Of a stretch of DNA of 64,000 nucleotides, positions 30,701 through 64,000 are shown piece after piece. The translations under genes were made by a program, and so were the position numbers. Positions within the stretch are counted from its first letter, which is position 1, and every line of letters starts with the position of its first letter. The notes beneath the pieces are model-generated. The model ran no database searches and was not told where the DNA came from. It was given only the letters and a program-made list of their open reading frames with translations. Source of the stretch: Hypomesus transpacificus (Eukaryota > Chordata > Actinopteri > Osmeriformes > Osmeridae); contig NC_061071.1 of assembly GCF_021917145.1 (NCBI RefSeq), forward strand, positions 5,759,144-5,823,143, read 5' to 3'.

Positions 30701-32442
30701 CTTTAAATACAGGCACACACAAACACACTCTCACCCCACACACACTTCTCATAACCATACACACTCACACGATAAATTCCGACACACAAAACACCCTCTC
30801 TCACCACACACACACAAGCAAACCCTTACTAACCTCACACAAACACACACACACTTCATCCACCCCGTCTCCCGGCCTCACATCCAACCCGTGGTCCCGG
30901 ACAGGAGCTGGAAATCCACACGGACACGGCCAAGGCCCTGGCCGACTCCCTGGACGCGGCCCAGGTGGCGGGCTTCCCCTACTTCAACACCCTGCTGAGG
31001 ATCTTGGCCACGCGCTGCATGATGCAGGCCGTCTACTTCTGCTCGGGCCTGGACGGCGACTTCCACCACTACGGCCTGGCCTCGCCCATCTACACGCACT
31101 TCACCTCGCCTATCAGGAGGTCGGGCCGAACGCACACACTCCCCTCCTTAGAGACACACACACAACAGACTGACCGTAGCCCGTTTACACACACACTTCA
31201 CCGAGGGATCAGGAGGCAGGAACACAGACACATACACACACTTGCAATATGGATGACTCATTTAACAGATGCTTTTGTCTAAAGTGACGTACATATAGTG
31301 CATGTAAAGAAATCCCAGTAGAAGATCATGAATCAGAAGTGCGTAGTTCTACAGCCACTTAGCACTGTAACCACATCAGTGCAACAAAACATCTCAATTA
31401 CAGTAGCTAGCTGAGTATTGAACAGAACCCCGACCGTCACCGTTTCTCTGCCCCCCGTCGTCCTCCAGATACTCGGACATCATCGTGCATCGTCTGTTGG
31501 CGGTCGCCATCGGAGCAGACAGCACTTACCCAGATCTGATGGATAAGCACAAGCAGTCTGGCCTGTGCAACAACCTCAACTACCGCCACAAGATGGCGCA
31601 GTACGCCCAGAGGGCCTCGGTGGCATTCCACACACAGGTACACACACACCATGTTCTCATCATGTACTGGTTTGGTTGTGAATCTGGACAGTGGCGTCAG
31701 TGGCGTGTTCAGGGAGTGGCCTAGGGTGGCACGGGCCACCCCTGAAATCATATTGGCCACCCCAATATCTTAAATATGATTGGCTATATGCCCAGTCAGA
31801 GGCGGGCCACCCCTTGTGCCACCCCTATCAAAAATGTCTGGACACGTCCCTGAGTGGCGTGTGTCTGGTGTGTGCTGCTCAACTGTGTGTGTGTGTGTGT
31901 GTTTGGTCTCCAGCTGTTTTTCAGGAACCGAGGCATCCTGAACGAGGAGGGCTTCATCCTCTTTGTGAGAAAGAACGCCATCATCATCCTCATCCCCAAG
32001 TTTGGTCTGGAGGGCACGGTGTTCTTCGAGAACAAGGACAAGCCTGGCCCCAAGCTGAGCTTCCAAGAGGAGGTAGGCTCTGCGGCCCAGACCGTGTCCA
32101 GCCCAACACACTGGCAACTGAAGAAGAGCTAAAGCAGTCTAACTGTGTGTGTGTGTGTGTGTGTAGGGTCCTACTCTGAAGGTGGAGGATCACACCTTCA
32201 ACATGTTTGACAAGGTGAAGGTGACCATCAGTCTGGATTCCTCCAACATCCAGCACCAGAAGATCCGGATGTCCCTGATTGAGCCGATGGTAACTTGCCT
32301 CACACAGGTCGCTGGTTTATTAGTCCTGGGAGGGTTCCTATCTCTGCTGACTGGGTTCTGTTCCATGTTCCAGATCCCTGGCGTGAGTGTTCCAGCACCT
32401 GAAGTGGAACCCGACGCCAAGAAGGCCAAATTAGACCGCTGA
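24753..32442 (+). CDS. DIS3: DIS3 (exosome catalytic subunit RRP44), complete, 21 coding exons, 950 residues
   Basis: Nuclear RNA-exosome nuclease with 3'-5' exoribonuclease (RNB) and endonuclease (PIN) activity. Exons: 24753-24971, 25111-25268, 25446-25639, 25731-25804, 26044-26211, 26886-27047, 27635-27751, 27980-28117, 28342-28488, 28654-28770, 29227-29328, 29454-29518, 29656-29740, 29849-29976, 30205-30291, 30531-30687, 30905-31119, 31469-31637, 31914-32072, 32167-32289, 32374-32442. Phases join without a break. The N-terminal Cys cluster ([10 protein letters not shown]) is the CR3 motif. The PIN domain follows, with [11 protein letters not shown] (catalytic Asp ~66) and [10 protein letters not shown]. 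Then come cold-shock domains and the RNB domain, with [13 protein letters not shown] (~476-488) holding the metal-binding aspartates, and [17 protein letters not shown]. An S1-like domain closes the protein. Human DIS3 is 958 residues. Both active sites look intact. Confidence 0.98.
26215..26470. mobile_element. Old SINE/L2-tail-like repeat in DIS3 intron 5
   Basis: Begins with ACATTTGACATTTGATTCCC and CTTAGCAGATGCATTCATCC, a diverged form of the LINE-type tail seen on the SINEs. The downstream sequence (AAAATCAAGGATC...GTGCAACAAGAACATTTCAA) resembles that at 31255-31410 in DIS3 intron 17. Confidence 0.5.
28841..29027 (+). mobile_element. tRNA-derived SINE, copy 5 (DIS3 intron 10)
   Basis: GTCAGGTGGCTGAGCAGTTA head, GGGCAAGGCACTTCACCC body and GTCGCTCTGGATCAGAGCG tail. 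The B box is mutated (AGTTTAATTCC). Confidence 0.9.
31250..31415. mobile_element. Old repeat in DIS3 intron 17, relative of 26215-26470
   Basis: Starts ACTCATTTAACAGATGCTTT and has GTCTAAAGTGACGTACATAT, a decayed copy of the same tail, then GTGCAACAAAACATCTCAAT as in intron 5. Confidence 0.45.
31721..31850. repeat. Short fold-back repeat in DIS3 intron 18
   Basis: TAGGGTGGCACGGGCCACCC on the left and GGCCACCCCTTGTGCCACCC on the right are inverted relative to each other, with AATATGATTGGC between. It resembles a small MITE; I cannot assign a family. Confidence 0.4.
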
Positions 32443-33742: not shown

Positions 33743-35670
33743 TCAAGATACAAGCGGGGAGTGGGATTTTTTCATCAAGTTATTTTTTGGCATCAACAAG
33801 CTCTTTTTTAGATCTTGAATGATAAAAGACAAAGCAGAGACCTTTCGTTTCAACCTTGAGTTCTTCGCTCTCTGAAGTTTAAGTTGCTTCCTGCATGTAG
33901 TCAGATGGTCGTTGACTACGTCTAAACGTCGCTTCAGGGTTCTTGGGGATTCCGCAACAGAGTAGCCGTGCTCACCAAGAGGGCAGGGGTGTTTATCTGT
34001 GAAATAGCGGTGATCATGTGTAACACACATGATGTAGTGTAGCTGGTCTTTATTGTCTTCAGATAATCCACACTCACTTGCATCTTCAGTGTCATCCACA
34101 ATACCAAATGTTTGATTTACTACCAAAGACTTGTTCAGTGACACAACTTGTGCCTCAGTGTTGTCAATTTCCTCAATAGTTCCGACATCTGAAAAGTTGT
34201 CCAAGGCTTGAAGATCAAAAACTGGAATGTCCTGCGTTTCCTGTGTTATTGGAAGATCGAGGCTATAACAATGCTCGCTGTTAACACTTTCTTGCTTTAT
34301 TGTCTTTGTGTGTGACTTCTTCCGTAGACATGGATAGGAAAAAAGGGTGGGCACAGCAGACGTGGATAGCCTGATGTTACCCTTGCGGTCCTTGTAAAAA
34401 CAGTCATCCTTGAAATGCTGCGAACACAGTCGAGAGTGGGGATTTGGATTCCAGTCTAAACGTCTCACGTTGAGGACCCACTGCTGCAGCCTGGCCTGGT
34501 CTCCTAAAGGAAAGCTGTCATGGATTTGTTTAGCATTAATTAGCACTAATAATTCTATTGAAGATAGATAATTAAACATATTTGTTTGCATTCCTCAGCC
34601 TATCAGATTGGCATCATACAGAGGGGTTATACTAAAGATTTATTTGGCAATTTCTTAAATCGCTTCGAACTGTACCTTTCACGCCAAGCCCCCACCCCTC
34701 GCCCCTCGGCTTGAAGCAACGGCCCCGATGGATGTAGGTGGTATTGCATGTACGGTTAGGTTTCCGTGTCTTCCGGTCGTTTTTATTCTATTAACTCCAG
34801 TCAACATTTACAAAACTATCTCCCCCAATAATTTTGTTTGATTCTCGAACCTGGCTCATACTAATCGTTTTTTTATAGAATAATTTTTCCCGATATTGCT
34901 AAGTTTGAAACCAATCCGAAATGGGTAAACTAGCAACCCATTTATTTGCTTAGTCAATGAAAGTTGCCTGCAAATGTGCTCGCGGATACTAACAGGGCAC
35001 GAGCACAAAAGTTCACATTGGCCGATAGCCGATTTACATGAGCTGTCGGAGCTAGGAAAAAAAAGAGCCACTGTTTAAAGCTAGAACGGAAGACACGGAA
35101 GTGGAAATATGGCCGCGTCCGGTCGGCGCTCTCGCTTGCCTCACTGCGCCACTGAGCACTTCTCATAGAAATGAATGGGGACGCCATCTTGGAAGACAAA
35201 AGTAGCTTACTCTAGTTATATTAACTCCATGGTTCACGCCTACTCAAGAAAAAGCAACTGACTGATTCATAATCCCCATGTAAACTCGGATGACCCGAGA
35301 CAGTCACATACTTGCTCAAAATCAATGCCAGCCTCACTAATGTTTGTATTGGGCAGGTGATTACAGGATGAAAACTAACATAATCATAATCGACTAAATC
35401 TAATGACTGACACTGGTTTCAATTGATACAATGTGAATTCTTAAAATAGGCAAGTATATCGACTTTGATACATAGATTGTCAATAGACAGGCAGGCTGTA
35501 CATGCTGGAAAGAAGTTGCTAGCTAGGCATTTCTTTATACGACTTTAACAAAATAACGTTTTAAGTAATAAAAAGTTTACAACAAATACATGCCGGAAGA
35601 AATGTAAAGTTGATCGGGCCCCGCCGAGGAGCCTTCGGTTAGTGCAGTTGAAAGCAGCACAAGAAGGCAT
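33743..35670 (-). CDS. THAP-domain protein, two exons, 282 residues
   Basis: A THAP-type C2CH zinc-finger DNA-binding protein; the paralogue is not assignable. Exon 1 is 35594-35670 (start 35670, MPSCAAFNCTNRRLLGG); exon 2 is 33743-34514. Phases join to TLHFFRFPLGDQARLQQWV. The zinc ligands are Cys4, Cys9, Cys56 and His59 (LCSQHF). The conserved Trp of the QQWV segment and the closing AVPTLF motif (79-84, family AVPTIF) are present, so the domain is complete. DHRY at 193-196 fits the HCF1-binding motif (D/E)HxY, and residues ~215-265 form a basic coiled coil, the usual order in THAP proteins that bind HCF1. The intron appears to start with GC rather than GT, the only placement I found that keeps frame and THAP spacing. 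The 77-base exon 1 has no alternative start. Confidence 0.85.
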
Positions 35671-43374: not shown

Positions 43375-43703
43375 CTATCTGAGACCGAGCGTTGTGCTCA
43401 ATAAGGAGTCCTGCTCAAGTAAGAACACTGTCATCATGTGGCAGGCTTGAGCTCCTTTGTTCAGCACGGCGTCGATGACGTGGCGCCCTCTCTCCGCCCT
43501 CTCAGCGATGGCCTTGACAGACTCCTCCTCTTCCTGCGTGATGACTCCATGCTGACGGAGCTCGTCCAATAGGCTGTTGAGCACGGGGACCGACACACGC
43601 TTCACAAACTCTGACCTCACAGCCTTCAGCTGCTGCTCCGCACGTTCACTCTGAGCGCGCTCAGACGGTCCCTCTGACGTCGTCGCTCCGGTGACAGCAG
43701 CAC
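43375..43703 (-). other. CARD exon (exon 14, terminal)
   Basis: A death-fold CARD of about 82 residues ([59 protein letters not shown]) ending at the stop at 43375. The helices and spacing match the NLRP1/ASC-type CARD. Confidence 0.92.
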
Positions 43704-46700
43704 CTGCAAACAGTCAGTGACATCATCAGTGTGTTACCATGGAGAGAACACTCCAGAGTAGCAGACTCAGCTAACAGACTAAAGATTCACCTCAGATACT
43801 CATTCACCTTTACATGTTATGACAACAATCCTACTAACAAGAATAGTTTACAAACAAATGTAATTGTTCAAGCCATCACGTCCAACTTGACTTCAGCTCA
43901 TCACCTGTGGGGGGTCGTAAATGTCAGCTGCTGTTACCTGTCAGTGGGACCAGCCCTGACCACACCTCCACCCCCTCCAGCCTCCTCTCCAACAGGCTGA
44001 GCTCCGCCTCCTGTGTGACGGGGGGCAGGAACACCTGGAAGGTGGGGTGGTAGTTGGGTCCGTAGTTCCAGTCCATCACAACACACTGGAACAGGGATTA
44101 ACCCAGTCATGAGTCAGCATCTACTGTAGCACAACATTGAAACCACATTGTTGGAACTAGTGTGACCCGATGAGTCACCTACTTTTGGTTGTATCCTGGG
44201 TGTCTCTTCCAGATGACAGGTGAGACTGTATCTTTCCCCCTTAGCTAGCTGGCAGTCAGAACTGACACGCAGGTAGGTGGTTCCCTCCTGTTTCTCCCTC
44301 ACCTGCAACCAGACAGAGGAGGCTACTATCTTCCTTGAAGACTATCATGGTAAGCTAAGCATTCCATGATTCCAGCAGGTCACTGTGGATGTGGAGCAGG
44401 GATGTCTGGTTTACCTCAGAGAGAGGCACGTTGCTGGGCAGAACCATCACGTTGAGGATGGTATACATGGGGCTCAGCTGCTGGAGGAAGAGGAGCACCT
44501 GGCCCTTGATGGTGAGGGAGGGTAGAAACCACCTGACCAGGCCCCACAGGGACAGGTCTGTCACATCCACCACCACATGAGAGTCTGTCACCCTCAGTGG
44601 AGGCACAAGCTCCACGCTGCCTCCAGCAACATGAGCCACAGACAGCACCTCACGCCCCTCTCCTGAAACACAGTAACCTGTCACTCTCACTGTGTTACCT
44701 CATTGTCTATAACAGACAGTCTAGAATAGGACTATCTTGGACAGATAGAAGTCAAACACGTACAGACTGCTGGGTGAGACGTTTCTAGGTGTAACTCACC
44801 AGAGAGAATCTCACAGTGTGGGAGGTGCAGCTGACAGACAGAGCCCTGGGGACAGTCGATGGTGAACAGGGGTCCGGCAGGGGAGCGGCCTGTGGAGTTC
44901 AGCAGACCTTCGTCCCATTGGACAGTCCTGTAGAGCACCTCCCCCTGGCCCTCCATCAGGAACATGAAGGCAGTCAGACTGCACTGGAACAGGCCTGCTT
45001 GAGGGCAGCAGAGCCTGGGGACGCAGCAGAACCAGCTCACTCACTACTGCAGAAACACCTGGGACAATACCACTGTACCCTGATAGTATGTTGTTAGAGG
45101 CTGGAAAGCTCACGTATATGAGGTTTCTGTGAGTTCTACTGCAGTTTCTGGAGTCACTACAGTCGGAGTCTGGAATACAGAGAAAAACTTGATCAAACCA
45201 AGAACTGTCCAGTGTTCTCTGATGTTACAGAGCAGATCTAGATGGAGGGGTTGTATTAGAAAATGTGGCAATGTAAAGTACTGGAATATGTACTGCTGTT
45301 CTATTTGAAATATCATGTTTGGTTTGTCTCCACAGATGTTCAGAGCAGAGGTGCAGGTTCTTACAAGTTCCTCTGGTGTAGAACTCAGAGTGGCTCCAGC
45401 CAGCAGGGGCTTCCTGGGTTGTGGAGAAGGAGGGAAGACAGTGTTGACTGAAAGGACCAGATAAAGACACAGCTGTCTCAAGAACTCCAGGATTCATCTG
45501 CATACCTCACACCAGTCCTAGATCTGGATGATCCCAGCACTGAGGTCAGGTGACGTGACGGACAGGAAGTGTCAGAGCCGTAGGCGGAGTCATGTGCAGA
45601 GCTTCTCAGAGATTGGCAATCAGATCCGTCATCGCCAACCCCTGTGGAACAAGCGGACCAGATCACACTGAACACCAGAGGCTAGACTGAGGAGAGTCAG
45701 CAGTCTGAATCCTACCAACCCTGGTCCTACCCTAGACATGACCCTCTATGACCTCTGACCCTGGTTTGACCCTCAGCAGACATGACCCTTTATGACCTCT
45801 GACCCTGGTCCTACCCTCATCAGACATGACCCTCTATGACCTCTGACCCTGTTCCTACCATCAGGTTGTGATCCAGCCTCTGAGCCCCAGTCAGACATGT
45901 TTTCAGAGTTGTTGGTGGTTTCTGTTCTGCTGGCCCCACGCACTGAAGAACAACAACACTCGTTATCAACAGCACCATTCCTTGTTGTAGGTGTCAGATT
46001 CATACTAACTACTTAACTTTAAACTTGAATGAATAGTACTTGTTCAGGTGCTTACTTATCTTTTTACATGTAAGAATCATGATTCTGTCATTCTACGTTG
46101 ACACACTGAATATATACATTGAAAAATTCCTTCCCGGTTTCATTTGATTAATTTACTTCACCCCAACTGTAAGTGTCCACTGCCACTTTGGGAATTTGCA
46201 TTACTGCCACTTTGGGAATTTGCATTACTCACTATTTATTACTATATTATCATTACTTTATCTCTGTATAATTTCAAACTCACAGGAACGAAGAGCATCT
46301 ATGCTCCTAATCCCCTTCTCAGGCCGAAATGGTATCTTCCACTCAGAACTCTGGTCTTCATCTCTGATGCCCTCCAGGCAGAACACATCTCCACTGTTCA
46401 CTGCCACCATCTCCTCTATCTTGTCCAGCAGCTCTGTGACCTGAGAGCCATCACCACTGTCCTCATTGTTAAAGACATGAAACCTGTTCCCACATTTCTC
46501 AACAACCCACTGGAGAGCTTTCCCCTCTTGTTGAATGTGCTGCTCAATGGTCGTGTCTCCCAGACGGTCCCCACGGGTGAACAGCACTATAGTGTGACTC
46601 CAGACTCTCTCACCGAGAAGCTCCATGTGTTGCTCTACAGATTTAGCGTTTTCCTCTGTGAATGAAACCACCCCCATCATGACCAGGAGGAGGGCGTGGG

Positions 46701-48615
46701 GTCCTGGGGGACACAGAGACACACTGCGTACTATCTCTTCTTTAACCAGCTTAATAGTGCCCTCTACAGGGAAATCACGCCACCACCCTGGAGTGTCGAT
46801 GACAGTAACCTGCCTCCCTGCTACTTCTCCCTGTCTCTTCACACACTGAGCAGCTGTCCTCAGGTCAAACTCCTCTCTGCCCAGGATGGTGTTTCCTGAT
46901 GTACTCTTCCCTGCACCTCTCCACCCCAAAAGCATAATCCTCAGCTCTGCCAGATGGAGGGAGTCACCTGTCGGAGAGAGAAACCAAATAAATTGTTGTC
47001 CCTTTACCATTTGTGCCCCTCAAATTCTATAATGCAGATAACTGCTGTATTCTTAGTTCACACACTCTATTTGATGCTATATTGCGGGGTACTCAATAGG
47101 CGGACTCCGGTCCAGATCCGGACCCAGACGCAATATAATTTGGACCGAAGCCAAAATCAATAGTCTTATTTAGTCATATTTCTTTTCTACTAGATGTGGT
47201 TTCTATCTTCCGTGTCCAACCCAAAGGTCCAATCGGCAGCTGTGATAACTGTGATCACCATGACAACTCACTCACTCAACGTTGGCCGCAACCTCTGTGG
47301 GTCTCGCAGGTTGTGTGTGTCCTTCGCAACAACGCAGGCTCATCGATTTGCTAACCGTACCTGTTTCTTCCTTAGGCAAAATCATGACGTGACAAAACCC
47401 AACAAAAAGCTAAAAGTTGATTCCGTAAATTGCAAATTTCAGACAGAGTGGACTGAGAAGTATACATTTGTGTTGCCGGTGGGGAGCACAAGACTGATGT
47501 GTTTACGTAATCTGCAATGAGACGGTTGCCCTTGTCATAAGTGGTAACGTGAAATGTCACTATGACACAAAGCATAGATACTTTACTAAACAAAATTACC
47601 CCATGAACTCTGAGGTAAAGACCAGAAAATGTTTTCCTTCTGGGTTTCTAATTGAGACCCCTGCTATATTGTCCCATTGTTTAGAGTTTTCTATGACTTG
47701 ACAAGATCACATCTGGCCAGCCCTCAAAGCTATCCTCAAAGCAGTAAGTTATGGGTACAGGTGTAAACCTTTTACTTTTCTCTAGTTTTTCAATAAACTC
47801 CTAAACTGAACTTTAACCTATTCCAGTTCTTGCAAATTAGGCTGATTGCTCTATTACTGTAAACCAAACCAAAACAACTCACCTATAAATGTTTGGTGGA
47901 TCTCTCTCTGTTTTTGCACCTTCATCCTTCTGTCTTTAGCTTGCTCTTCTTCAGTTCTCCTCCACAGTTCTATCTTTTTAATCTTTGCCAGCAGCTCTCT
48001 GTCTATCTCATAATGTCTTCCTCTGTTTCCTGACACCATCTCCTCTATCTTGTCCAGCAGCTCTGTGACCTGAGAGCCATCACCCCTGTTCTTATTGTTG
48101 AGGACATGATACCTGTTCCCACATTTCTCAACAAGCCGTTGGAGGGCTTTTCCTTCTGTCTCAATGTGCTGCTCAATGGTTGTAACTCCCAGATAGTCCC
48201 CCAAAGGTGAACAGCACAATAGTGTGACCCCAGACTCTCTCACTGAGAAGCTGCAAGTGTTGCTCTATAGAATTTGCCTCCTCCTTAGTGAATGAAGTCA
48301 ATCCCTGTACGACCAGGAGGAGGGCGTGGGGTCCTGGGGGACACAGAGACACACTGCGTACTATCTCTTCTTTAACCAGCCCAGTAGTGTTCTTTAAAAG
48401 GCAATTCCTCAACCAGCCTGGTGTCTCGACCACACTGACCTGTCTCCCTGCTACTTCCCCCTCTTTCTTCACACTCTGAGATATTGTCATCTGATTAAAC
48501 TCTTCCCTGCCCAGGATGGTGTTTCCTGATGAACTCTTCCCTGCGTAACGGTATCCCAGCAGCACAATCCTCAGCTCTGAGAGATGGAGGCAGTGACCTG
48601 CATGGAGACAGGAAG

Positions 48616-48693
<78 letters not shown>

Positions 48694-48727
48694 AGAGGAA
48701 GGAGAGAGAGACAGAGAGAGAGAGGGA

Positions 48728-48758
<31 letters not shown>

Positions 48759-48767
48759 GGGAGACGA

Positions 48768-48815
<48 letters not shown>

Positions 48816-51473
48816 GAGAGACTAGAGAGAGAGAGAGAGAGAAGAGAGAGAGAGGAGAGAGAGGAGAGAGAGTGAGAGAGAGAGGAGAGAGAGGAGATGA
48901 GAGAGAGAGAGAGAGGAAAAGAAACAAAGAGAGCAAAATGAAAGGATTTATTTTCTGCACCCCTGTAAACATTAATCCCAATCCATATGTTTGTACGATT
49001 TCTTACAATGTGTACTGCTGTTATGTAACCCACTTACTGCTTAAATGTACAACACCATTTTATAAACTATTTATTACATCTGTGTTACTTTACATCCAAT
49101 GTTAAAAAAGTGTCATCGTTCACACTGTAGGTTCATGACTAAGTTCAGGTTCAGTCAAATATGGATGTACTGTAAATAAGGGGAGCACTTATTTGGCTGG
49201 TCCTATAAGAGTTGCTTGCTGTGTCTGTATAAACATCTGTGATGATCCTTGTTCTCTATTTCACACTATTTCTACATTTACTGTGCTCTCTGATCTTCCT
49301 GCCACATATAGATGTTGCTGCCTCCTACAGTAGGTCTGGTCACTTGTCTGGTATAAACTTCTCCTCTCAGCTGACAGACAACAAGTGCAAGATCCCAGAC
49401 CTGAATCGATGCCACACCTTTGGTGGACATGAAGTTATCTGCTCCCACAGAGATTGTGGTCGGAAAACAATAGATGTTTCTATGCACTATGCAGATTACA
49501 TGTTACACTTTGCAAGAAAGGAAAATATTTGTACATTGCTTCTGATAAAAGTGTCTGGTAAATGAATACATATAAATAAACTCACCCATTTGTGATCTGA
49601 GATTCTCTCTCTGTTTATGCACTTTCACCAGCCTCTCGTGTGCTCTCTCTTTCTCTGCCCTCCTTCTCTCCTCTATCTTGTCCAGCAGCTCTCTGTCTAT
49701 CGTAAAGTGTCCTTCTCTGTTTCCTGCCACCATCTCCTCTATCTTGTCCAGCAGCTCTGTGACCTGAGAGCCATCACCCCTGTTCCTATTGTTGAGGACA
49801 TGATACCTGTTCCCACATTTCTCAACAAGCCACTGGAGGGCCTTCCCTTGTTGTTGAATGTGCTGCTCAATAGTTGTGTCTCCCAGATTGTCCCCACGGG
49901 TGAACAGCACTATAGTGTGACTCCAGACTCTCTCACTGAGAAGCTTCATGTGTTGCTCTACAGATTCTCTGTATTTCTCAGTGAATGAAACATCCATCTG
50001 TATGACCAGGAGGAAAGTGTGAGGTCCTGGGGGACACAGAGACACACTGCGTACAATCTCTTCTTTAACCAGCTTAATAGTGCCCTCTACAGGGAGATCC
50101 CTCCGCCATCCTGGAGTGTCAACCACAGTGACCTGTCTCCCTGCTCCCTCTCCCAGTTTCTTCACACACTGCGCTGTCCTCAGGTCAAACTCCTCTTTAC
50201 CCAGGATGGTGTTTCCTGATGAACTCTTCCCTGCACCTATCCACCCCAGAAGCACAATCCTCAGCTCTGAGAGATGGACAGAGTCACCTGTCGGAGAGAG
50301 AAACATTGTAAACAGTCGTGTCCTAATCAGCTGTGCCTCTCAAATTCAATAATGCAAATGACTGTTGTGCTCTTAGTTGAAACAATATTTTATGTTATTT
50401 TGTAATATTTTGAATTGTCTTACTTGTTAGAGAGTGAACTTAAACAGAAGAGCCTTTACCTAAACCACTTGTATATTTGATGGTCAACAATAGGCCCCTG
50501 CTCAAAACTATTCAAGATGAATAACTATTCAAATATAAATAAGGAATGAAGTCTTAAGAAAGAGACACAATAGGGAATTACTTTCGTATTACAACCATCT
50601 ATTTTCACTGCATGTTTCTTTAAACCAAGAAACAAAACTCACCTCTTAATGTTTGATGGATCTCTCTTTGTTTTGGAACCTTCTGACTTTCTTTTCCTTT
50701 CTCTTCTTTTGTTCTCCACTTTCTTGACTTGTCCAGTATTCCTCTCTTGATCTCATAATGTCTTCCTCTGTTTCCTGCGACCATCTCCTCTATCTTGTCC
50801 AGCAGTTCTGTGACCTGAGAGCCATCGCCCCTGTTCATATTGTTGAGGACATGATACCTGTTCCTACATTTCTCAACAAGCCACTGGAGGGCCTTCCCCT
50901 CCTGTTGAATGTACTGCTCAATGGTTGTGTTTCCCAGATAGTCCCCATGAGTGAACAACACTATAGTGTGACTCCAGACGCTCTCACTGAGAAGCTGCAG
51001 GTGCTTCTCTACTGATAATCTGTGTTTCTCAGTGAATGAACCCCCTCCTTGTATGACCAGGAGGAGGGCGTGGGGTCCTGGGGGACACAGAGACACACTG
51101 CATACTATCTCCTGTTTAACCAGCTTAGTTGTGTGCTCTGCAGGGAGATCCCTCCACCATCCTGGAGTGTCGACCACAGTGACCTGTCTCCCTGCTACCT
51201 CTCCCAGTCTCTTCGCACACTGAGCTGTCCTCAGGTCAAACTCCTCTCTACCCAGGATGGTGTTTCCTGATGAACTCTTCCCTGCACTTATCCACCCCAG
51301 CAGCATAATCCTCATCTCTGAGAGATGGATTGAGTTACCTGCCATTCACATTCAAATTGTTAGAATCCAAATGGACAAATACAAGCTAATACCAAATTTC
51401 ATACAAGGAGATATTTGACCATATTCAGATTTGACATATGAGTTACTTAACCTGAACTGCCACGGGCTTCCAT
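43375..51473 (-). CDS. Predicted four-AIG1 GTPase-FIIND-CARD protein, 14 exons, ~1,409 residues
   Basis: Exons, minus strand: 51452-51473 (start 51473, MEARGSS), 50643-51338, 49586-50287, 47883-48597, 46284-46967, 45859-45942, 45513-45641, 45365-45447, 45114-45169, 44800-45014, 44415-44662, 44183-44302, 43938-44085, 43375-43703. All use GT-AG and every junction keeps phase. Exon 4 is one base too long (715), from a fifth G at 48198-48202. Predicted order: four IMAP/AIG1 GTPase domains (~8-939), a Ser/Thr-rich linker, FIIND (ZU5-UPA, ~1045-1300), CARD (~1328-1409). FIIND-CARD is the signalling end of NLRP1 and CARD8, and fish GBPs with FIIND-CARD are known, so an inflammasome-type sensor is inferred with GTPase modules as the sensing part. 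The alternative is separate GIMAP genes next to a FIIND-CARD gene, but only one leader exon was found and no AIG1 exon has a proper ending. Domains are certain; the single-transcript model is likely. Confidence 0.78.
43938..45014 (-). other. FIIND (ZU5-UPA) block, exons 10-13
   Basis: Four exons encode [60 protein letters not shown], then the UPA part [20 protein letters not shown] and [18 protein letters not shown]. This is the FIIND of NLRP1/CARD8-type proteins. Confidence 0.9.
45717..45855. repeat. ~51-bp tandem repeat in intron 6 of the fusion gene
   Basis: Nearly three copies of a unit containing AGACATGACCCTCTATGACC and TCTGACCCTGGTCCTACCCT. Confidence 0.9.
46284..46967 (-). other. AIG1 GTPase domain 4 (exon 5)
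   Basis: Phase 1-1 exon of 684 bases. P-loop [43 protein letters not shown]. Its C-terminal tail differs from the other three and leads into the linker exons. Confidence 0.93.
47883..48597 (-). other. AIG1 GTPase domain 3 (exon 4), frameshifted
   Basis: Acceptor and donor as in the other three exons, P-loop [16 protein letters not shown] and ETPGWLRN intact. The length is 715, one more than a multiple of three: after HTIVLFT the frame jumps at five Gs (plus-strand C run 48198-48202), and [14 protein letters not shown] continues in the next frame. The partial copy at 52319 has four Gs at the same place and stays in frame. Confidence 0.9.
48612..48920. repeat. (GA)n-rich purine tract next to AIG1 exon 4
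   Basis: About 300 bases of GA with GGAGA interruptions. On the gene's sense strand it is a polypyrimidine tract ending ~15 bases before the exon 4 acceptor. Confidence 0.97.
49586..50287 (-). other. AIG1 GTPase domain 2 (exon 3)
   Basis: Phase 1-1 exon of 702 bases. P-loop [35 protein letters not shown] and NRYHVLNN. It has an internal repeat of LLDKIEE in the tail. Confidence 0.93.
50643..51338 (-). other. AIG1 GTPase domain 1 (exon 2)
   Basis: Phase 1-1 exon of 696 bases. G1 P-loop [16 protein letters not shown]3 [15 protein letters not shown]-box region [14 protein letters not shown]4-like FTHGDYLG and a late RYHVLNN (G5 region). A basic, Lys/Glu-rich tail follows the domain. All nucleotide-binding motifs look intact. 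Confidence 0.93.
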
Positions 51474-52318
51474 TGTTGCTCTCGGACTTTATGTAGGTTT
51501 CAGTCTCTCAGTCTAGAAGAAATTGCAGCCTGTTCAGATAAGCTTGTTGCATAAGATTGAGTGACTTGTTGCTCTTGTAGGTTAGTTATAATGAAGTTAA
51601 GTCTTGTACTCGCTGTGAAATATTTTACTATTGATTGTTCTTCTACAGGTACAGTCCTGCACTTTTTTGTGGTTCATGTTGTTTTAATTTGTAATTTGTA
51701 TAACTGCATGCTCTTATGGGTCTTCCCTTTTTGGCACTTGTTTAGTTTTTTCACAATGTATGCTTCATGTTTTGGCTGCTTGCAATGTTTGGGACTACCT
51801 CGTTGTCATGATCAGTGACCTATGCTCTTTTGTAAAGCTATCTTGGATGTCGCTTTGGATAAAAGCGTTTGCGAAATGCATAAATGTAAATGTGAATAAG
51901 CCTACTGGAGACAAAGTCCACCTGAATGTCTTCACCCTTTTACAAACACTTCAGGCAACAACAGTTTAGTTCAAAACTACTCAACAATAAGTGAAAAAAA
52001 TACAGAAACGTGAATGGTCCTACCATCTCTCATGAGACAGCAAGGTGTCCAAATTGGAGATAAATGAGAATTGACTTTCAAGTAATTCGTGAGTCGGTGA
52101 CAGTGTGACGCCGATACTTCCGTAAAGCCAGCAAGGAGGAAAAAAGCGCTGTGGCACCTTAGTGGTTGTTAATTATTTATGAGAATCCATTTCACATGCC
52201 AAATACGACTGAAAAGGGGGAGTTTGAGGTGCAATCGCATTTCGCTGTACTTCAGCTGGGCTGAAGCGAATGACTTGTGAGTGGGAGGACTGCACATGAA
52301 GTGCGTAGGTACGCAACG
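51474..52318. other. 5' flank of the fusion gene, with a SINE-tail remnant
   Basis: 51830-51893 matches the SINE/LINE tail (GTCGCTTTGGATAAAAGCGT then AATGCATAAATGTAAATGTG). The rest is probably promoter; no other exon seen. Confidence 0.5.
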
Positions 52319-52638
52319 CTGTCTCAATGTGCTGCTCAATGTTTGTAACTCCCAGATAGTCCCCACAGGTGAACAGCACAATAGTGTGACCCCAGACTCT
52401 CTCACTGAGAAGCTGCAAGTGTTGCTCTATAGAATTTGCCTCCTACTTAGTGAATGAAGTCAATCCCTGTACGACCAGGAGGAGGGCGTGGGGTCCTGGG
52501 GGACACAGAGACACACTGCGTACTATCTCTTAGTTGAAACAATATTTTATGTTATTTTGTAATATTTTGAATTGTCTTACTTGTTAGAGAGTGAACTTAA
52601 ACAGAAGAGCCTTTACCTAAACCACTTGTATATTTGAT
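52319..52638 (-). pseudogene. Chimeric fragment: part of AIG1 exon 4 joined to part of intron 2
   Basis: 52319-52531 is a near-identical copy of 48156-48369 (the G4-to-G3 part of AIG1 exon 4). 52527-52638 is a near-identical copy of 50370-50481, from intron 2 of the same gene. The sources share CTCTT at the join. No splice signals or P-loop, so non-functional. Confidence 0.88.
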
Positions 52639-56414: not shown

Positions 56415-57606
56415 ATGTCGGCATTCAGTGCGGAGCTTATAGACTACCTAGAAGGCAAGATATCCTTCGAGGAGTTTGAAAAGCAGAGAGAGGAACGCAA
56501 AAACAAGGTCAAAGTAAGTGCACTTTGAGTTCAATTGAACCCTGGTGTGAGGTGAGTGCTAAAGGCTACAGTGATCATGCTTAGCATTATGGGAGGAAGC
56601 AGCTCCACACCAGACAGTGAATTATCTTGCGTGGCCGACTGGCGATTACTTCTCTCTCTCCCCCAACCTCTCTTCCTCCAGGCTCCAGAGGCAAGCGACG
56701 AGGAAGGTCCTGATGCCATTCTCCCCGGAACCTCACACCAAAGCCCCAAGAGAGCCAGAAGGGCACCCACAGGTGAGCAGCGTCTCCCAGCCTCTGATCA
56801 GATACGGATCAGCCTGCATGGCTGACCTCAAGTAGTTTGTAGCCGAGCAAGTGAGCCAATTTGATGCTGGAACCAACGTAAAATATCTCCTGTACCTCAC
56901 GTCTTTCCAAATCCTTTTTCCCTCTCTCCTCCAGGTGGGGCGGATGAGGGGGTCCGTCCGTCCGTCCAGCAGGCCTTTGACTCCATGCTAAGGGGGGCAG
57001 AAGAGCTGCAGTCTGAGGACGAGGACGACGAGAACTACGAAGACGGCGATGATGAAGATTACGAAGTGGGCGAGGACGAGGACGAGGATGAAGAGGGTGG
57101 TGACGACGAGGGGAAGCGTAAGGAGGAGAGCAGCAGGAGGCGGAAGGAGAGGCGGACGAAAGACAAGGACCGAGACGATGAGGAGGGGGGCGAGGGTCCA
57201 TCCGCTGGAGACGTGTTTGCCTTGGAGATGGAGCTCAACAGAGAGAACAAGAAGATGATGAAGGTGAGCTTGCTTGTATGTTTGTCTGTGCGCGCGTGTG
57301 TGTGAGCATTTCAGAGGAGCTTATGTGACTGTGTTTAGGTGATTAGCCGATGTACTGATCGTGTGTGTGTGTGTGTGTGTGCGCGCAGGAGAGACGTCAC
57401 CGCAGCAAGCTGCCCAGAGCTCTGAGGGGTCTGATGGGCGAGGCCAACATCCGTTACGCCCGTGGAGAGAAGGAGGACGCCATCCTCATGTGCATGGAGA
57501 TCATCAGACAAGGTGAGCAGCACGGTCACAGAGTGTGAGTGTTCCTGTGCCGGTCTGTCTGTGTACGTGTGTTTGTTCACAAGCCTGTCATTACAAGCCT
57601 GTCCAC

Positions 57607-57639
<33 letters not shown>

Positions 57640-60600
57640 CCCCTCTGCTCACCCCTCCCTATTCGTTCCCCCCAAGCCCCCTTGGCTTACGAGCCCTTCT
57701 CCACCCTGGCTATGATCTACGAGGACGAGGGGGACATGGAGAAGTCCCTCCAGTTTGGCCTCATCGCCGCCCATCTCAACCCCAGTGACAGTGAGGAGTG
57801 GGTGAAGCTGGCGGACATGTCCCTGGAGCAGGGCAACGTCAAGCAGGCCATCATCTGCTACAGCAAAGGTCCGACCCCCTGACCCCCGACCCCTTCCAAA
57901 TGGCATCGTCGGGCAGATTTGTTAGGAACTGACGTACTCTCTGCCTCGTTGACGTACCCCGTCGCTCTCCTCGTTTCTCTCCTTTCTCCCTCAGCCATCA
58001 AGCACGACCCCACCAACGTGCGCTACCTGTGGGAGCGTTCCAGCCTCTACATGCAGCTGGGGGAGCACAGGCAGTGTATGGACGGTTACCGCCGTATCCT
58101 CTCTCTGCTACCCCCTGCTGACGGACTCCATTTCATGCAGCTGTCCAGGGACATGGCCAAGTGAGCGCGCACACACACACACACACAAACACACCACCAG
58201 AGGTGTCAAAAGTATTCACATTTATTACTCAAGTAGAAGTATAGATACTAGGGTTTAAAAAGACTTCTTTAGAAGTTTAAGTATCAACTCAAACTTTTTA
58301 CTCAGGTAAAAGTGTAAAAGTACTGGTTTCAAAACTACTTAAAGTATAAAAGTAAACGTAGTAATGTAAGGGGAAAAAAATGCCAAGAAGGACAAAAGCT
58401 TAGGCCGCCCACAGGGGCCATTATGCACTACCCCACCTCCACAAAAAGGCCTATTATGGCCTATTTTTCTATAGGCCATAATGACTAATGTTGTATTGAA
58501 ATGTTAATGTTGAAACAATTAGGATGCACCTGTTTCAGCCGCATTTATGCCCATTGAAAATGAATGCATTTTTGTACAATGCAAATACATGAAAGAACCA
58601 TATATGTGTACTACTTAGCATTAACATGTGTTTCATGGAGCGGAAGATATGATTTAGTTGCCTATACGTATTGTAAAGGTGCAAAAAAATCAACCATCAG
58701 AGGCATGTTGTCAATAGCCTTTATTCAAATTAGACAGCTTTTTTACATTTTTAAAATCCATTAGCTCGTGTTACTTGGGTGCTCAGAAGTTGCAGCGCAT
58801 TTGAAAGAAGTTGTTTTTGAATCCAACCATTTCCAAAAATTCCTCCAGGTACGGCCAGGGATGTAGAAGGGTTGGCTGGTCTTCCTGGCACCAACCTCCT
58901 CGCTGGTGTTTGGTTGGGATATTTCGCTCGAGTTCTCTTGAGTCTCTGCCACAGACATCTTTGTACTAGGCAACATACGTCTGCTATTTCCTTGCTGGAG
59001 TGTGACACGGTTTGTGTCATGTGCAGGTGGGATGGATCGCGTACAACCCAATAGGGTGTCGTAATGGTATATGTTTATACTTCTCATCCAACCACAATCG
59101 AATTCACTCTATCCGGATGGATTTTACGATGAAAAGATGGAATGAAAACGAGCCGAACTGTAATTGGAGTAGCGAGGCTATTTTTAAAATGTGAGGAGTA
59201 GAAAGTAAGGTATAGATGGCCCTACCCAAAATGTCTACTTAAGGGACACCTCTGTACAACGCGCACTGTAAAGAAGCCCCGTTGTGCACAAAACCAACCC
59301 ACTCAAACAGATAAGGCCGTACATAAACTTGAAACCCTAGCTTTTTTGAGCTGAACTAACCACACGTGTCTGTGTGTGTCTGTGTGTGTTTGTGTCTGTA
59401 GGAGCTACTATGAGAGCAGTGATCTGACCTCGGCCATCGGGGTGATAGAGGATTCTCTGGGCCGCCACCCAGAACTAGTCAATGATGAGATCATCAACAT
59501 GGCAGCTGAGTTGTACATTGCCAACCACCAATATGGGAAGGCCCTGCAGGTGTGTGTGGGACTCAGCTCTCCTTAAGAGTCAGGCCTAAGAAAAGTCCTC
59601 CTACTCCAGTATCCATGTAAGGATGACATTATAAAGATACAGCAGAAATGAATTGACCTTCTCGTCATCTACTCTCTCTCCCTCGTGTGTGTGTGTGTAG
59701 GTTCTGATCCGGTTCTGTCACATAGTTCTGGTGAAAGAAGAACGGAAACAGGTTCCAGCAGAACAGAAACGGGGTCCAGCAGAACAGGGGGAGGACCAGA
59801 TGGAGACGGAGGAGGAGAAGAACGAGACGACGGAGGAGGCGGGTGAGAGAGACAGATAGAGAGAGAGAGAGAGGGGGGGGGGGATCTGCAGCTCCTCATT
59901 ACAGAGAAGAAATGAACGATCAAGCTCCTACTTGACTAGTTCAAAGAGAGGGATCGCTGTCGAGGAATGGTAGGATAGCCACAGTAGACGTCTAACTCGA
60001 CTGCAGGGCTGCTTGATTATGGCGAAGATAATAAAGTAGAGATCCCGATTATTGAACATGATTACTCATTGACTTTGGAAAAACATCATGCATTTATTGA
60101 ACTTCAAAAAATAGACCAGCATATCTATGATGTCAACACCACAACCTCCCATTGTTTCCTAGCCTATTGTACTTTTGCCTACCCCAGCACACCTCAGCAC
60201 ACCGTAATCTCTTTTTCCTCTCCATTCTGCTCTTTGTCTCTGCACCGCTTCCCCGGTCTCTCTCTCTCATTCCCCCTTTCTCTGTGCCTGCCCCACCTCC
60301 CACCCAAACCTTCACCCACACTTCCCACCCCCACCTCCCATCTCTAGGGGAAGTGACAGACGTGCAGGTCCCAGACACGGTCCCGGTAGACATCAAGGTG
60401 AAGCTGATGGTGTGTCTCATCCATCAGCAAGTCTACAAACCTCTGGAAGTGAGTGAGCCTTCCATCCGTCCTCTCTCTGTCCTCCACGGAGCACCTGCAT
60501 TGATCCCTCTGGCACCCGTGTGTGTGTCCAGGTGATGCTGTCCAGCCTGACAGACCAGAGCCCAGAGGAGCTGGGAGATCTGTACCTGGACGTGGCCGAG

Positions 60601-60803
60601 GCCTTCCTGGAGCAGGGCCAGTACTCCTCGGCCCTGCCCCTGCTCTCTGCCCTCGTCTGCTCCGACAAGTACAACCTGGCCGTGGTCTGGCTCCGGCACG
60701 CAGGTACACGCCCTTCCTCTCACACACACACACACACACGGACACACATATACGGGTACACACGCATGTAAGCAAAACTGTGTGTATATATATGTATATG
60801 TAC

Positions 60804-60848
<45 letters not shown>

Positions 60849-63800
60849 GAAACACACAGACAGGGTCACAAGCACACATGTACCCAAGCCCCACCCCCTC
60901 CCTCCCTCTCCCCCCCAGAGTGTCTGAAGGCGCTGGGCCAGATGGAGGGCGCTGTGCAGAGCTACCTGAAGGTGGTGGAGATGGCTCCCCAGCACCTGGA
61001 GGCCAGGCTGTGCCTGTCCACCCTGCAGCAGCAGCTGGGCCGGCCCCTGAGGGCCCTGGAGGCCCTGCAGCCCATGTACGACCCCGAGACGCTGGCCCAG
61101 GACGCGGCCGCCGCGCAACAGGTGGGAGGTCTGGGCGGGGCTGTCTGTGTGTGTGTGTGTATTTGTGTGTGTTTCTGTTTGAAAATGTGTAACCCTTCTG
61201 TGTGGTTGTCATTTCGGCATCTGTCTTGTGTCTGTGTTTATTTGGTGGGTGTGTGTTTATTTGGTGTGTGTGTGTGTGTGTGTCACCAGGAGTTGAAGTT
61301 GCTGCTGCATCGCTCCACTCTGCTGCGGTCTCAAGGCCGGCTGGAGGACTACCTGGACACCATGCTCACCATGCTGGGAATGCTGCTTAAGGTCTGGCTA
61401 CCACACACACACACACACAATATACACACTCACTCATATAAATACACATACATATATAATCACTCTCTCTCTCACACACACACATATAGGCCAAACAACT
61501 GAAAATATTCCCCTTGATGGTTAAACTGGACAGTGTATTAACATTAAATGATTCTGGAATTGCAGTTATTTGACTCTTTTGGGTTCAATCAAAGCACGAC
61601 TGGTTAAAGTAAAGTAAAATGTAATTTATATTCAATAACACCAAGATGAATGAAATCAATTACGAGGCAAACATGTTATAAAATCGTACTTACTCTACCG
61701 TGATTATTGCAAATCGGAGAGAGAGAGTAAGAGGAGAGCAAGGAGGAGAAGAAGCCAGACCTGAGGAGGAAAACCTCAGGAGAAGAAGAACCTAGAGAAC
61801 AATGCTTCACACTCCCTTTACACCCATCTATTATATACAAGAACAACCAATCAGACCACATCTCGACCCTTGCTTATCAACCAATGACGACCAACGCAAC
61901 AGTTACAGTCACACCATGAGGTCTGACAACCATCATGCAAAAACTAATCCAGTCTTGAGCATAGGAGAGATGGAGCGAAGGCTACAGCCCAGCCTACACA
62001 CGTCATCTTCTCACACCTGCACATACGCTCTCTCACACATACTTGCACATGTAACGCACTTACACGCGTGCGTACGCTCGCACAATTTCTCACACGCTCA
62101 CAACCGCGCGCATGAAACCCGCACTCTGTAACACACACGTTATCCCGTCTCTCTCATTCATTCTTGTTCAGTATTCTTATCATACTATACATTGTTCTCC
62201 TGGATGTGTGTACGTGTGTTTGATACCTGCGTGCGTGTGTACACGCCTGTGTGTGTGTGTGTTCCAGGTGGCGATGACGCGTGCCGAGGTGTGTTTGAGA
62301 GCCACCCACGTGTCCGGGGTGAGACACCTGTGCCTGGTGAAGGCCACGAGCGACGAGGTGTTCGACATCGACGACCAGGAAGCAGCCTACCAGGACATCA
62401 GTGGTAGGACTGCGTGGGTGTCTGTTAGTGTGTGTCTGCATCAGCTGACATTTTACATTTAGTCATTTTGCAGACGCTCTTATCCAGAGCGACTTACAGG
62501 AAGTACAGGGACATTGCCCCCGAGGCAAGTAGGGTGAAGGGCCTTGCCCAAGGACACAACGTCATTTGTCACAGCCGGAAATCAAACCGGCAACCTTCTG
62601 ATTGCTAGCCCGATTCCCTAACCGCTCAGCCACCTGACTCCCTTACCTTCATTTCAAACCTTTCGTAGGTGCAAGTGTGAGCACTGCGTCTGTGCGTGTG
62701 TGTCTCCCGTAGGTAAGACCAGCGTGTTGTCTCGGGAGGACTGGTGGCAGCTGCTGGTGCAGAGTGTGTGCACGCTGTGCGAGGTGAAGCGCTACAAGGA
62801 GGCCGAGCTCCTGGTGGACTCCTCCCTGGAGTTCTACTCCTTCTACGACGTCAAGCCCAAGAGGAAGGAGCTGGAGGTGTTCGGCCTGTCCGCCGCCTTC
62901 CTGGACCACAACTACCGCAAGGCCTACAACTACATCAGGTGTGTGTGTGTGGGGGGGGGGATCCCTTCTTAATCTGGATGTTGGTGGGTTACTGTGGTCA
63001 CGAAACAAAAGTTGTGTGTTTATTGTGATTTAAGACAAGAATCTGAGTGGTGCCGAACGCATGGCCACTCCTGACTAGTTCTTGTAAGGAGATGAGGGTC
63101 TTTGTGGAAGAAAGACTAATCCCAGTGGTGGATGTGGAGAGCTAGTCAGGCAGCGTAGCATTCACTGTAATCCAGCTTCTACCATCCACACCAAAGTGCA
63201 CACACAATACACAATCTGCATTTGATTGTGCGGTAAACCGAGTTTGAAAATCGGAAAATGTTTTTGTCAGATCCTTGCATTAGTGTGTGTGTGTGAATTT
63301 AAGTGATTTCCTTAAACTTCAAAACCGCTAGAGATACAATAATGTGACACAGTGATACATCAAAACAAGCTACTTCCGTATCTCCCATTTGCCAATAAAA
63401 ACAGATTTAGATGCTTTTAATATGTAGGGTTAGGTGTGTATTTGCAGCATGTGTTTACATGTGTGTGAGTGTCATTACGTGTGTGTATTTACGTGCGTGG
63501 GGGTATTTAAGTGTGTGTGGGTGTAGTTACACGTGTGTGTCATCACGTGTGTGTGTCATTACGTGTGTGTATTAACGTGTGTGGGGGTATTTAAGTGTGT
63601 GTGTGTATTTACATGTGTGTGTGTGTGTGTTTACATGTGTGTGTGTGTGGGTGCAGACTGATGCTGATGGAAGAGCTGGACCGACCCCAGCTGTGGAACC
63701 TCTTTAACCAGGTGACCATCAACTCCCAGGACCTGCGTCATCACCGCTTCTGCCTGCGGCTCATGCTGAAGAACCCCGACAACCACGCCCTGTCAGTCCT

Positions 63801-64000
63801 CTGTGGACACAACGCCCTGGTGTCCGGAAGCTTCAAACACGCCCTGGGTGTGTACACGCCTCACGCTGAACAACAAGCACACACACACACAGACACACAC
63901 ACAGTCAATATACACGGCTCTGTTCCTCAACTTTGTGTGTGTGTGTAGGCCAATATGTGCAGGCGTTCCGTGTGCGCCCAGAAGACCCTCTCTACAGCTT
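56415..64000 (+). CDS. GTF3C3: GTF3C3 (TFIIIC102), exons 1-16, continues past the right edge
   Basis: General transcription factor 3C subunit 3, a TPR-repeat scaffold of the TFIIIC tau-A lobe that recruits TFIIIB to tRNA and 5S genes. Exons: 56415-56513, 56682-56772, 56935-57263, 57389-57512, 57677-57868, 57995-58160, 59402-59549, 59701-59842, 60348-60448, 60532-60703, 60919-61121, 61290-61391, 62268-62403, 62713-62938, 63657-63847, 63949->64000. All are GT-AG and phases join. The start MSAFSAELIDYLEGKISFEE matches the family. An acidic stretch (exon 3), SKLPRALRGLMGEANIRYAR, APLAYEPFSTLAMIYEDEGD, VRYLWERSSLYMQLGEHRQC, DLYLDVAEAFLEQGQYSSAL and LVDSSLEFYSFYDVKPKRKE mark successive TPRs. About 820 of ~890 residues are present. 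Confidence 0.97.
57608..57638. repeat. 31-base C run in GTF3C3 intron 4
   Basis: An uninterrupted C run ~40 bases upstream of the exon 5 acceptor, which is itself CCCCCCAAG. Confidence 0.95.
58198..59254. mobile_element. Tol2-like hAT element, non-autonomous, 1,057 bp (GTF3C3 intron 6)
   Basis: Perfect 10-bp inverted ends CAGAGGTGTC...GACACCTCTG. Subterminal sequence such as TTACTCAAGTAGAAGTATAG and TACTCAGGTAAAAGTGTAAA is typical of Tol2-type hAT ends. No transposase is recognisable. Flanking 8-mers CACACCAC and TACAACGC agree at 5 of 8 positions, so the target duplication is eroded or uncertain. Confidence 0.85.
60804..60846. repeat. (TA)n microsatellite in GTF3C3 intron 10
   Basis: About 19 TA units between GT- and CA-rich blocks. 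Confidence 0.95.
61545..61995. repeat. Dispersed ~450-bp repeat, copy B (GTF3C3 intron 12)
   Basis: Same orientation and block order as 41455-41935 (see copy A). The shared start GGAATTGCAGTTATTTGACT and the AGACCACATCT block are the best-conserved parts. Confidence 0.75.
62452..62638 (-). mobile_element. tRNA-derived SINE, copy 6 (GTF3C3 intron 13)
   Basis: Reverse-oriented full-length copy with TTTACATTTAGTCATTTTGC tail and CGCTCAGCCACCTGAC head. Confidence 0.9.
63420..63655. repeat. GT-rich minisatellite in GTF3C3 intron 14
   Basis: Variants of a ~20-base unit, (CATTACGTGTGTGTATTTAC)-like, running up to the exon 15 acceptor. Confidence 0.85.

Follow-up and report, generated by a model that had tools for sequence, protein, structure and literature searches.

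GIMAP proteins are known from lymphocyte survival and for acting at membranes, and we know of no settled signalling mechanism for them. In the inflammasome sensors NLRP1 and CARD8, the ZU5 and UPA parts of the FIIND directly precede a C-terminal CARD. The same arrangement closes the predicted product of a gene described here from the delta smelt, Hypomesus transpacificus, within a 64,000-nucleotide stretch of its genome (the window). The best reading of the gene, and a plausible one, is as a GIMAP-sensing analogue of NLRP1 and CARD8. More fully, we put at about 0.7 the probability that this is one fish gene, in which four GIMAP (AIG1) exons are joined via a linker to FIIND-CARD, and that it likely encodes an inflammasome sensor of the NLRP1/CARD8 kind, with GTPases that would recognise membranes when these are disturbed or parasitised.

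Several described systems share parts of this layout. NLRP1 (NACHT-LRR-FIIND-CARD) likewise has a FIIND and then a C-terminal CARD, with the His and Ser of its cleavage site equally spaced, but the window gene has an AIG1 array for NACHT-LRR, Leu-Ser for Phe-Ser and a CARD nearer to that of caspase-1. The NACHT and LRR domains of the NLR family gave no match at E ≤ 1 in the scanned exon translations, AIG1 domains being found instead. CARD8 aligns end to end with the FIIND-CARD part (7jkq), but its N-terminus is unstructured according to the available part of PMC11760013, whereas the window gene has four GTPase domains. Zebrafish Gbp3 and Gbp4 are fish proteins that also have a GTPase first and a CARD last, and Gbp4 works via Asc, its GTPase activity and Asc being needed for caspase-1 activation and Salmonella clearance (available sections of PMC4932187). 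Their GTPase, however, is GBP rather than AIG1 and those sections describe no array; a figure legend there also draws a FIIND, without identifying the protein that bears it. GIMAP8 has tandem AIG1 domains within one protein, but the mammalian form has three GTPase domains, and neither FIIND nor CARD is mentioned in the accessible portions of PMC8201404 and PMC4201521. Fish SLIP-GC-FIIND-CARD and SAMD9L-FIIND-CARD proteins (P0010, P0113, P0011; names from NCBI, P0010 by likeness to P0113) carry the FIIND-CARD end behind another NTPase, their N-terminal parts being other than AIG1. In prokaryotic and metazoan TRADD-N systems, TRADD-N is fused to AIG GTPases and to FIIND, with no GIMAP-FIIND-CARD fusion in the excerpt of PMC8195603 that describes them. 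Among the papers listed, titles, abstract starts and passages of the open-licence literature yielded no description of a GIMAP-FIIND-CARD fusion and no paper combining AIG1 with FIIND. The gene is thus apparently a FIIND-CARD sensor with a sensor end not found described in that literature.

The gene comprises 14 exons at 51473-43375 on the minus strand, encoding in order an MEARGSS leader, four AIG1 domains, the linker, ZU5-UPA (FIIND) and CARD:

51473-51452, minus strand: exon 1, leader of 22 nucleotides (ATG GAA GCC CGT GGC AGT TCA G), phase 0 to 1
51338-50643, minus strand: exon 2, AIG1 domain 1 with P-loop, phase 1-1, PF04548 at 9.7e-42
50287-49586, minus strand: exon 3, AIG1 domain 2, phase 1-1, Pfam 1.5e-42
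48597-47883, minus strand: exon 4, AIG1 domain 3, 715 nucleotides with one surplus base mid-exon, first part Pfam 1.4e-24
46967-46284, minus strand: exon 5, AIG1 domain 4 with distinct tail NSGDVF..., donor GTGAGT, phase 1-1, Pfam 2.7e-44
45942-45859, minus strand: exon 6, linker, recurs in P0013 and P0001
45641-45506, minus strand: exon 7, linker, recurs in P0013 and P0001
45413-45365, minus strand: exon 8, linker, recurs in P0013 and P0001
45169-45114, minus strand: exon 9, linker, recurs in P0013 and P0001
45014-44800, minus strand: exon 10, FIIND, ZU5 part 1, with His at the CARD8 His252 position (44818-44816)
44662-44415, minus strand: exon 11, ZU5 part 2 and UPA start
44633-44631, minus strand: in exon 11, His at the CARD8 His270 position
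44555-44550, minus strand: in exon 11, Leu-Ser cleavage position
44302-44183, minus strand: exon 12, UPA (Pfam)
44085-43938, minus strand: exon 13, UPA (Pfam)
43703-43375, minus strand: exon 14, CARD and stop TAG (Pfam)

The exons lie where the original prediction had placed them: all 13 introns have GT-AG borders and, with the surplus base of exon 4 disregarded, the phases agree at each of the 13 joins. The domain identities that it proposed also hold. AIG1 was matched in Pfam in exons 2, 3 and 5 and over the opening part of exon 4, with E-values of 1.4e-24 to 2.7e-44 and scores of 87 to 151.5 bits (cut-off 27), while FIIND (2.9e-40), UPA-FIIND (2.8e-26) and CARD (1.4e-14) each score above their curated cut-offs. 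The linker, 108 residues from exons 6-9, has no Pfam match at E ≤ 1. A G1 motif is present in all four AIG1 domains, and G3 reads DTPG in three of them and ETPG in exon 4.

The same design is found in a second smelt. The predicted protein P0001 of Osmerus eperlanus (1340 residues) follows the window gene in its layout, from four AIG1 domains, of which the first is truncated, through linker, ZU5 and UPA to CARD, and 11 of the 13 joins (joins 3-13) recur in it with 13-17 of 16-17 positions identical. Identity between window and P0001 is 92% in the linker, 93% in ZU5, 94% in UPA, 91% in CARD and 74-88% in the AIG1 parts (exons 2, 3, 5). Conservation of the linker between the smelts is comparable to that of FIIND, and in the trout protein P0002 the linker is still recognisable, at 39%. 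Within H. transpacificus, the NCBI model P0013 ('LOW QUALITY PROTEIN: GTPase IMAP family member 8-like') has the same MEARGSSG beginning as exon 1, matches exons 1-3 and 5-9 identically (473 + 335 = 808 residues) and splices exon 5 to exon 6 and onward to 9, with all residues flanking joins 1-8 identical. Recurrence of these joins goes beyond chance; P0013 was predicted from the same species' genome and is not independent, and P0001 comes from another species.

Several observations weigh against this reading. On the GTPase side, G4 is THGD or TRGD in exons 2, 3 and 5, with no Lys where GIMAP4 and GIMAP2 have one; the ratio of non-synonymous to synonymous substitution (dN/dS) among AIG1 exons is 0.47-0.80 over six pairs, pointing to only moderate constraint; and the protein without exon 4 has no strongly hydrophobic stretch (19-residue maximum 1.77). 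At the FIIND site, where the sensors have an SF/S motif, a His for catalysis and a modulating Glu, Leu replaces Phe296 of CARD8 and Val replaces Glu279, the Ser and both His being kept. As to the joins, that of exons 1 and 2 has no match outside P0013. That of exons 2 and 3 lacks independent support and is not well matched by its counterpart in P0001: at the first AIG1-AIG1 join of that protein the second domain is without its start, and the match obtained stems from a later AIG1-AIG1 join. P0013 itself stops before the FIIND, ending ETSYT, as if the exon-9 donor were read through to the TGA at 45112-45110. Finally, the frame as assembled is not open throughout, exon 4 having 715 nucleotides.

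The surplus base could mean that the locus is decaying, with exon 4 truly broken and the full protein no longer made by this copy, and the LOW QUALITY label on P0013 and a broken piece of exon 4 upstream agree with this. We regard decay as distinctly unlikely. The remaining exons are open, identity to the orthologue is 74-100% over the parts compared, and exon 4 is phase symmetric (1-1) apart from the surplus base, so that it can be skipped with the frame kept; its omission leaves an open frame of 1162 residues. The AIG1 domain of exon 4 is uninterrupted in the orthologues P0001 and P0332 and in frame within P0013. With the surplus base in a G run and the exon behind a TC tract, assembly errors near exon 4 are plausible. 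The long TC-rich tract (48920-48600, minus strand) lies immediately before the exon 4 acceptor. A fragment of an AIG1 exon at 52529-52323 on the minus strand, outside the gene, is a stray duplicate of a piece of exon 4 with 98% protein identity over 54 residues; it has its own in-frame stop, is without the surplus base and has an upstream flank that by eye resembles intron 2 sequence.

A further question is whether the locus is one gene or two: a GIMAP8-like gene ending in intron 5 and an adjoining CARD8-like FIIND-CARD gene, with the fusion models as annotation run-ons. In O. mordax, P0332 is a GIMAP-only model whose end, ...SCEFDII, is apparently read-through of the exon-5 donor, and P0121 is a separate FIIND-CARD-only model that begins at a Met of its own inside the linker; the two are probably on one contig (13806237 is listed for both). 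Like the fusion models, they are annotation predictions. Intron 5 of the window gene (341 nucleotides) has an in-frame stop at 46260-46258, of the same kind as the P0332 end, and an AATAAA at 46240, with about 0.2 expected per 341 nucleotides (42 in 64 kilobases of this strand). Two AATAAA lie in intron 3 and none in the 501 nucleotides past the CARD stop. The stop and the AATAAA of intron 5 too are points for separate genes, and FIIND-CARD proteins without AIG1 do exist, as do fusion models that are likely run-ons: P0005, P0253 and P0307 have two arrays, and Hemibagrus P0248 and P0252 also carry PF00078, which we take to be a reverse transcriptase domain. One AIG1-less example, P0124, is a 56% relative from H. 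transpacificus itself and the single Hypomesus row in the best 120 of 348 matches. Those 120 include no Hypomesus model for the window's FIIND-CARD exons, though rows are 90% clusters and a Hypomesus member may sit in a cluster such as P0122 (three members, 92% identical). The original prediction had named, as results that would count against it, transcripts ending after each AIG1 exon or a promoter and start codon belonging to the FIIND-CARD exons alone; on paper, the predicted models of O. mordax go part of the way to this.

Two separate genes nevertheless seem unlikely to us. In P0013 splicing connects exons 6-9 with the AIG1 exons, in P0001 with the parts on either side, and the linker is conserved as described above. 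The last AIG1 exon also has its own tail: a GDVF-like pattern follows 7 of 34 AIG1 domains before ZU5 or a caspase-1-like CARD, compared with 2 of 577 before another AIG1, none of five before an NLRP1-like CARD or UPA, and 3 of 92 at a protein end. Four Osmerus proteins (P0282, P0302, P0313, P0320) show a second output layout, AIG1-linker-CARD without FIIND, and in P0282 and P0313, from two Osmerus species, the linker is by eye of the same kind. O. eperlanus P0123, in which the search finds no AIG1 domain, has a start resembling an AIG1 end by eye, MEEMLAGGVFYP. As for a separate leader to the FIIND-CARD part, a start pattern like that of P0121 was unmatched on the minus strand of the window. 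Short phase-1 leaders (at most 13 codons, purine at -3, GTRAG donor) gave one candidate in 43400-52500, at 46080, by a pattern so narrow that it misses the gene's own leader and is no proof of absence. Given linker splicing, conservation and the AIG1 tail, annotation run-on was not adopted as the whole story and is kept as a rival.

The same data allow for one gene with several outputs, in which polyadenylation in intron 5 would give a GIMAP-only protein, exon skipping would give shorter sensors or a FIIND-CARD-only protein, and the full form would be the sensor. AIG1 exons 2, 3 and 5 are all phase 1-1, as is exon 4 but for its surplus base, P0124 begins MASG like the fusion P0012 and by eye then enters the linker at once, and the ends of P0332 and P0013 resemble read-through. 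As this evidence comes wholly from predicted models, we hold several outputs to be possible while leaning somewhat against them. They are compatible with a single sensor gene rather than opposed to it, and we think that the locus is one gene, maybe with an alternative end in intron 5.

Resemblance of the FIIND-CARD end to NLRP1 and CARD8, another part of the original prediction, is borne out by alignment and by the fold of the trout homologue. The His-to-Ser spacing of the cleavage site is 27 residues, as in NLRP1. With respect to the two replaced positions, CARD8 cleavage is severely defective in F296H and reduced in E279A, whereas in UNC5b the Phe position is itself a Leu (available part of PMC3210808). 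Leu is in fact the residue at this position in 199 of 241 fish FIIND stretches examined, and self-cleavage of the window FIIND is uncertain. The FIIND might instead be a non-cleaving spacer, the CARD being exposed by GTPase-driven clustering alone, as supposed for GBP-CARD proteins; the Leu and Val would fit this, as would the four Osmerus proteins with CARD but no FIIND. Set against it, the cleavage Ser is kept in 233 of 241 and the His in 236 of 242 FIIND stretches with a letter at that position, as if both were needed, and we entertain a spacer role only tentatively. Among solved structures, the nearest relative of the window CARD is the caspase-1 CARD. Foldseek matches of the trout homologue fold include some FIIND chains, in rows that give no range, and VIA-align with the whole protein returned mostly AIG1 rows, with no FIIND chain among the 50 shown.

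Database searches show the combination in predicted proteins of further teleosts. Among 354 retrieved proteins, at least 33 have AIG1 together with ZU5, UPA or CARD, and at least 26, from 16 species, have AIG1, ZU5 and CARD in order. These counts are lower bounds, drawn from the best 120 of 288, 348 and 5470 matches with one row per 90% cluster, and the searches with 288 and 5470 matches scored only candidates sharing most words. Outside otophysans the species are Osmerus eperlanus, O. mordax, Salmo trutta, Esox lucius, Alosa alosa and A. pseudoharengus. The remaining genera are, in higher groups that we presume, six characiforms (Salminus, Colossoma, Astyanax, Metynnis, Serrasalmus, Hoplias), three catfishes (Ictalurus, Tachysurus, Hemibagrus) and the knifefish Brachyhypopomus. 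The proteome search that the original prediction proposed therefore supports AIG1-linker-FIIND-CARD as a gene design, together with P0001 and the trout linker. Its remark that no such protein was described stands for the open-licence literature but not for databases, since NCBI and UniRef already contain uncharacterised predicted proteins of this make-up, and one of these has four AIG1 domains.

The outputs of these proteins are of two types. With both CARD models scored on 25 proteins, those of smelt, trout, pike and shad reach 45.7-111.1 bits with the caspase-1-like model versus at most 30.5 with the other, and otophysan fusions reach 96.3-129.5 bits with the NLRP1-like model versus at most 25.6. 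Outside the 25, two Alosa proteins score only 33 bits (caspase-1-like) and the Hemibagrus models 30-77 bits (NLRP1-like). In a tree of 59 FIIND stretches from 55 proteins (54 hand-picked of the 354, plus the window; fusions P0248, P0252, P0254, P0306, P0310 and P0327 left out), the fusions form three sets, and in two of these they are nested within AIG1-less FIINDs of related fish. The shad set, with an Alosa branch length of 2.86, is too divergent to place. A single ancient origin was tried by holding together 21 smelt/salmonid/pike and otophysan rows and was rejected (p-AU 7e-9), as was a lenient version allowing nested AIG1-less relatives (p-AU 3.5e-12). The test used 52 of the 59 rows, after dropping five Alosa (very long branch), one Electrophorus (36% filled) and a second Umbra copy, and the constrained groups were chosen after the tree was seen. 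Because of these rejections and the two CARD types, the union of AIG1 with FIIND-CARD seems to have arisen at least twice, although gene conversion between copies of the FIIND could give the same picture as separate origins. A tree of AIG1 domains clusters mostly by lineage and is silent on the origin of the fusions (19 hand-picked proteins, stretches of 150 residues or fewer excluded; the tree was built by a quick method, and 11 of its 65 inner branches are starred). The one parallel design envisaged in the original prediction is thereby widened.

We lean towards a broader view, in which the teleost FIIND-CARD is a plug-in alarm output that has been joined at least twice, perhaps three times (smelt/salmon/pike, otophysans and shads), to tandem GIMAP arrays. 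The result would be an undescribed class of GTPase inflammasomes, with a fast-changing, exon-swappable array as the sensor and caspase-1-like or NLRP1-like CARDs as the output. In salmonids and Umbra, FIIND-CARD also follows N-terminal parts that are dynamin-like (SLIP-GC) or SAMD9L-like (P0010, P0011, P0113 and others), and it occurs, in the search tables, with RING/TRIM-type, caspase and NLR domains. P0006, P0009 and P0010 have two consecutive FIIND (ZU5-UPA) units ahead of a single CARD.

For a sensor of this kind we propose the following mechanism. As in mammalian GIMAPs, the AIG1 domains would bind GTP and form assemblies on a membrane or on the vacuole of a pathogen; because no strongly hydrophobic stretch was found, contact with the membrane is something we infer. 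The FIIND would keep the UPA-CARD end silent, perhaps via self-cleavage and a non-covalent hold, until assembly, or degradation of the N-terminal part, clusters or frees the CARD. The CARD would then recruit caspase-1 directly or via ASC, leading to interleukin-1 release and pyroptosis. AIG1 exons of phase 1-1 could be gained, lost or skipped without loss of frame in the output end. Besides zebrafish Gbp4, there are precedents among GIMAPs: in rat macrophages, overexpression of GIMAP4, 5 and 6 draws a lysosome marker to the vacuole of Neospora (PMC12558955), and in gills of parasite-resistant steelhead two GIMAP4-like genes are the most induced (PMC7901748), each according to the sections available.

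Elsewhere in the window, other features were noted:

10794-10893: assembly gap of 100 N
28549-31279, plus strand: two stretches matching the RNB ribonuclease domain PF00773, presumably a DIS3-like exonuclease gene
33746-34594, minus strand: THAP domain PF05485 in an open stretch of 283 codons
39216-39566, plus strand: MLLE domain PF00658, of the kind that poly(A)-binding proteins have
57517-57879, plus strand: weak TPR matches below cut-off, with more exon-like open stretches to 63945; by eye 57517-63945 is what we take to be TFIIIC-subunit-like, such as GTF3C3

If the proposed reading is true, GIMAPs joined to an inflammasome output would gain a signalling mechanism, and one testable by expression of a single gene. 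The class would be sought in fish genomes among genes now annotated as GIMAP8-like, NLRP1a-like or uncharacterised. With repeated unions, those with SLIP-GC, SAMD9L and NLRs included, FIIND-CARD would be a release device of general use, its sensor end able to evolve freely, and this would bear on the origin of NLRP1 and CARD8 themselves.

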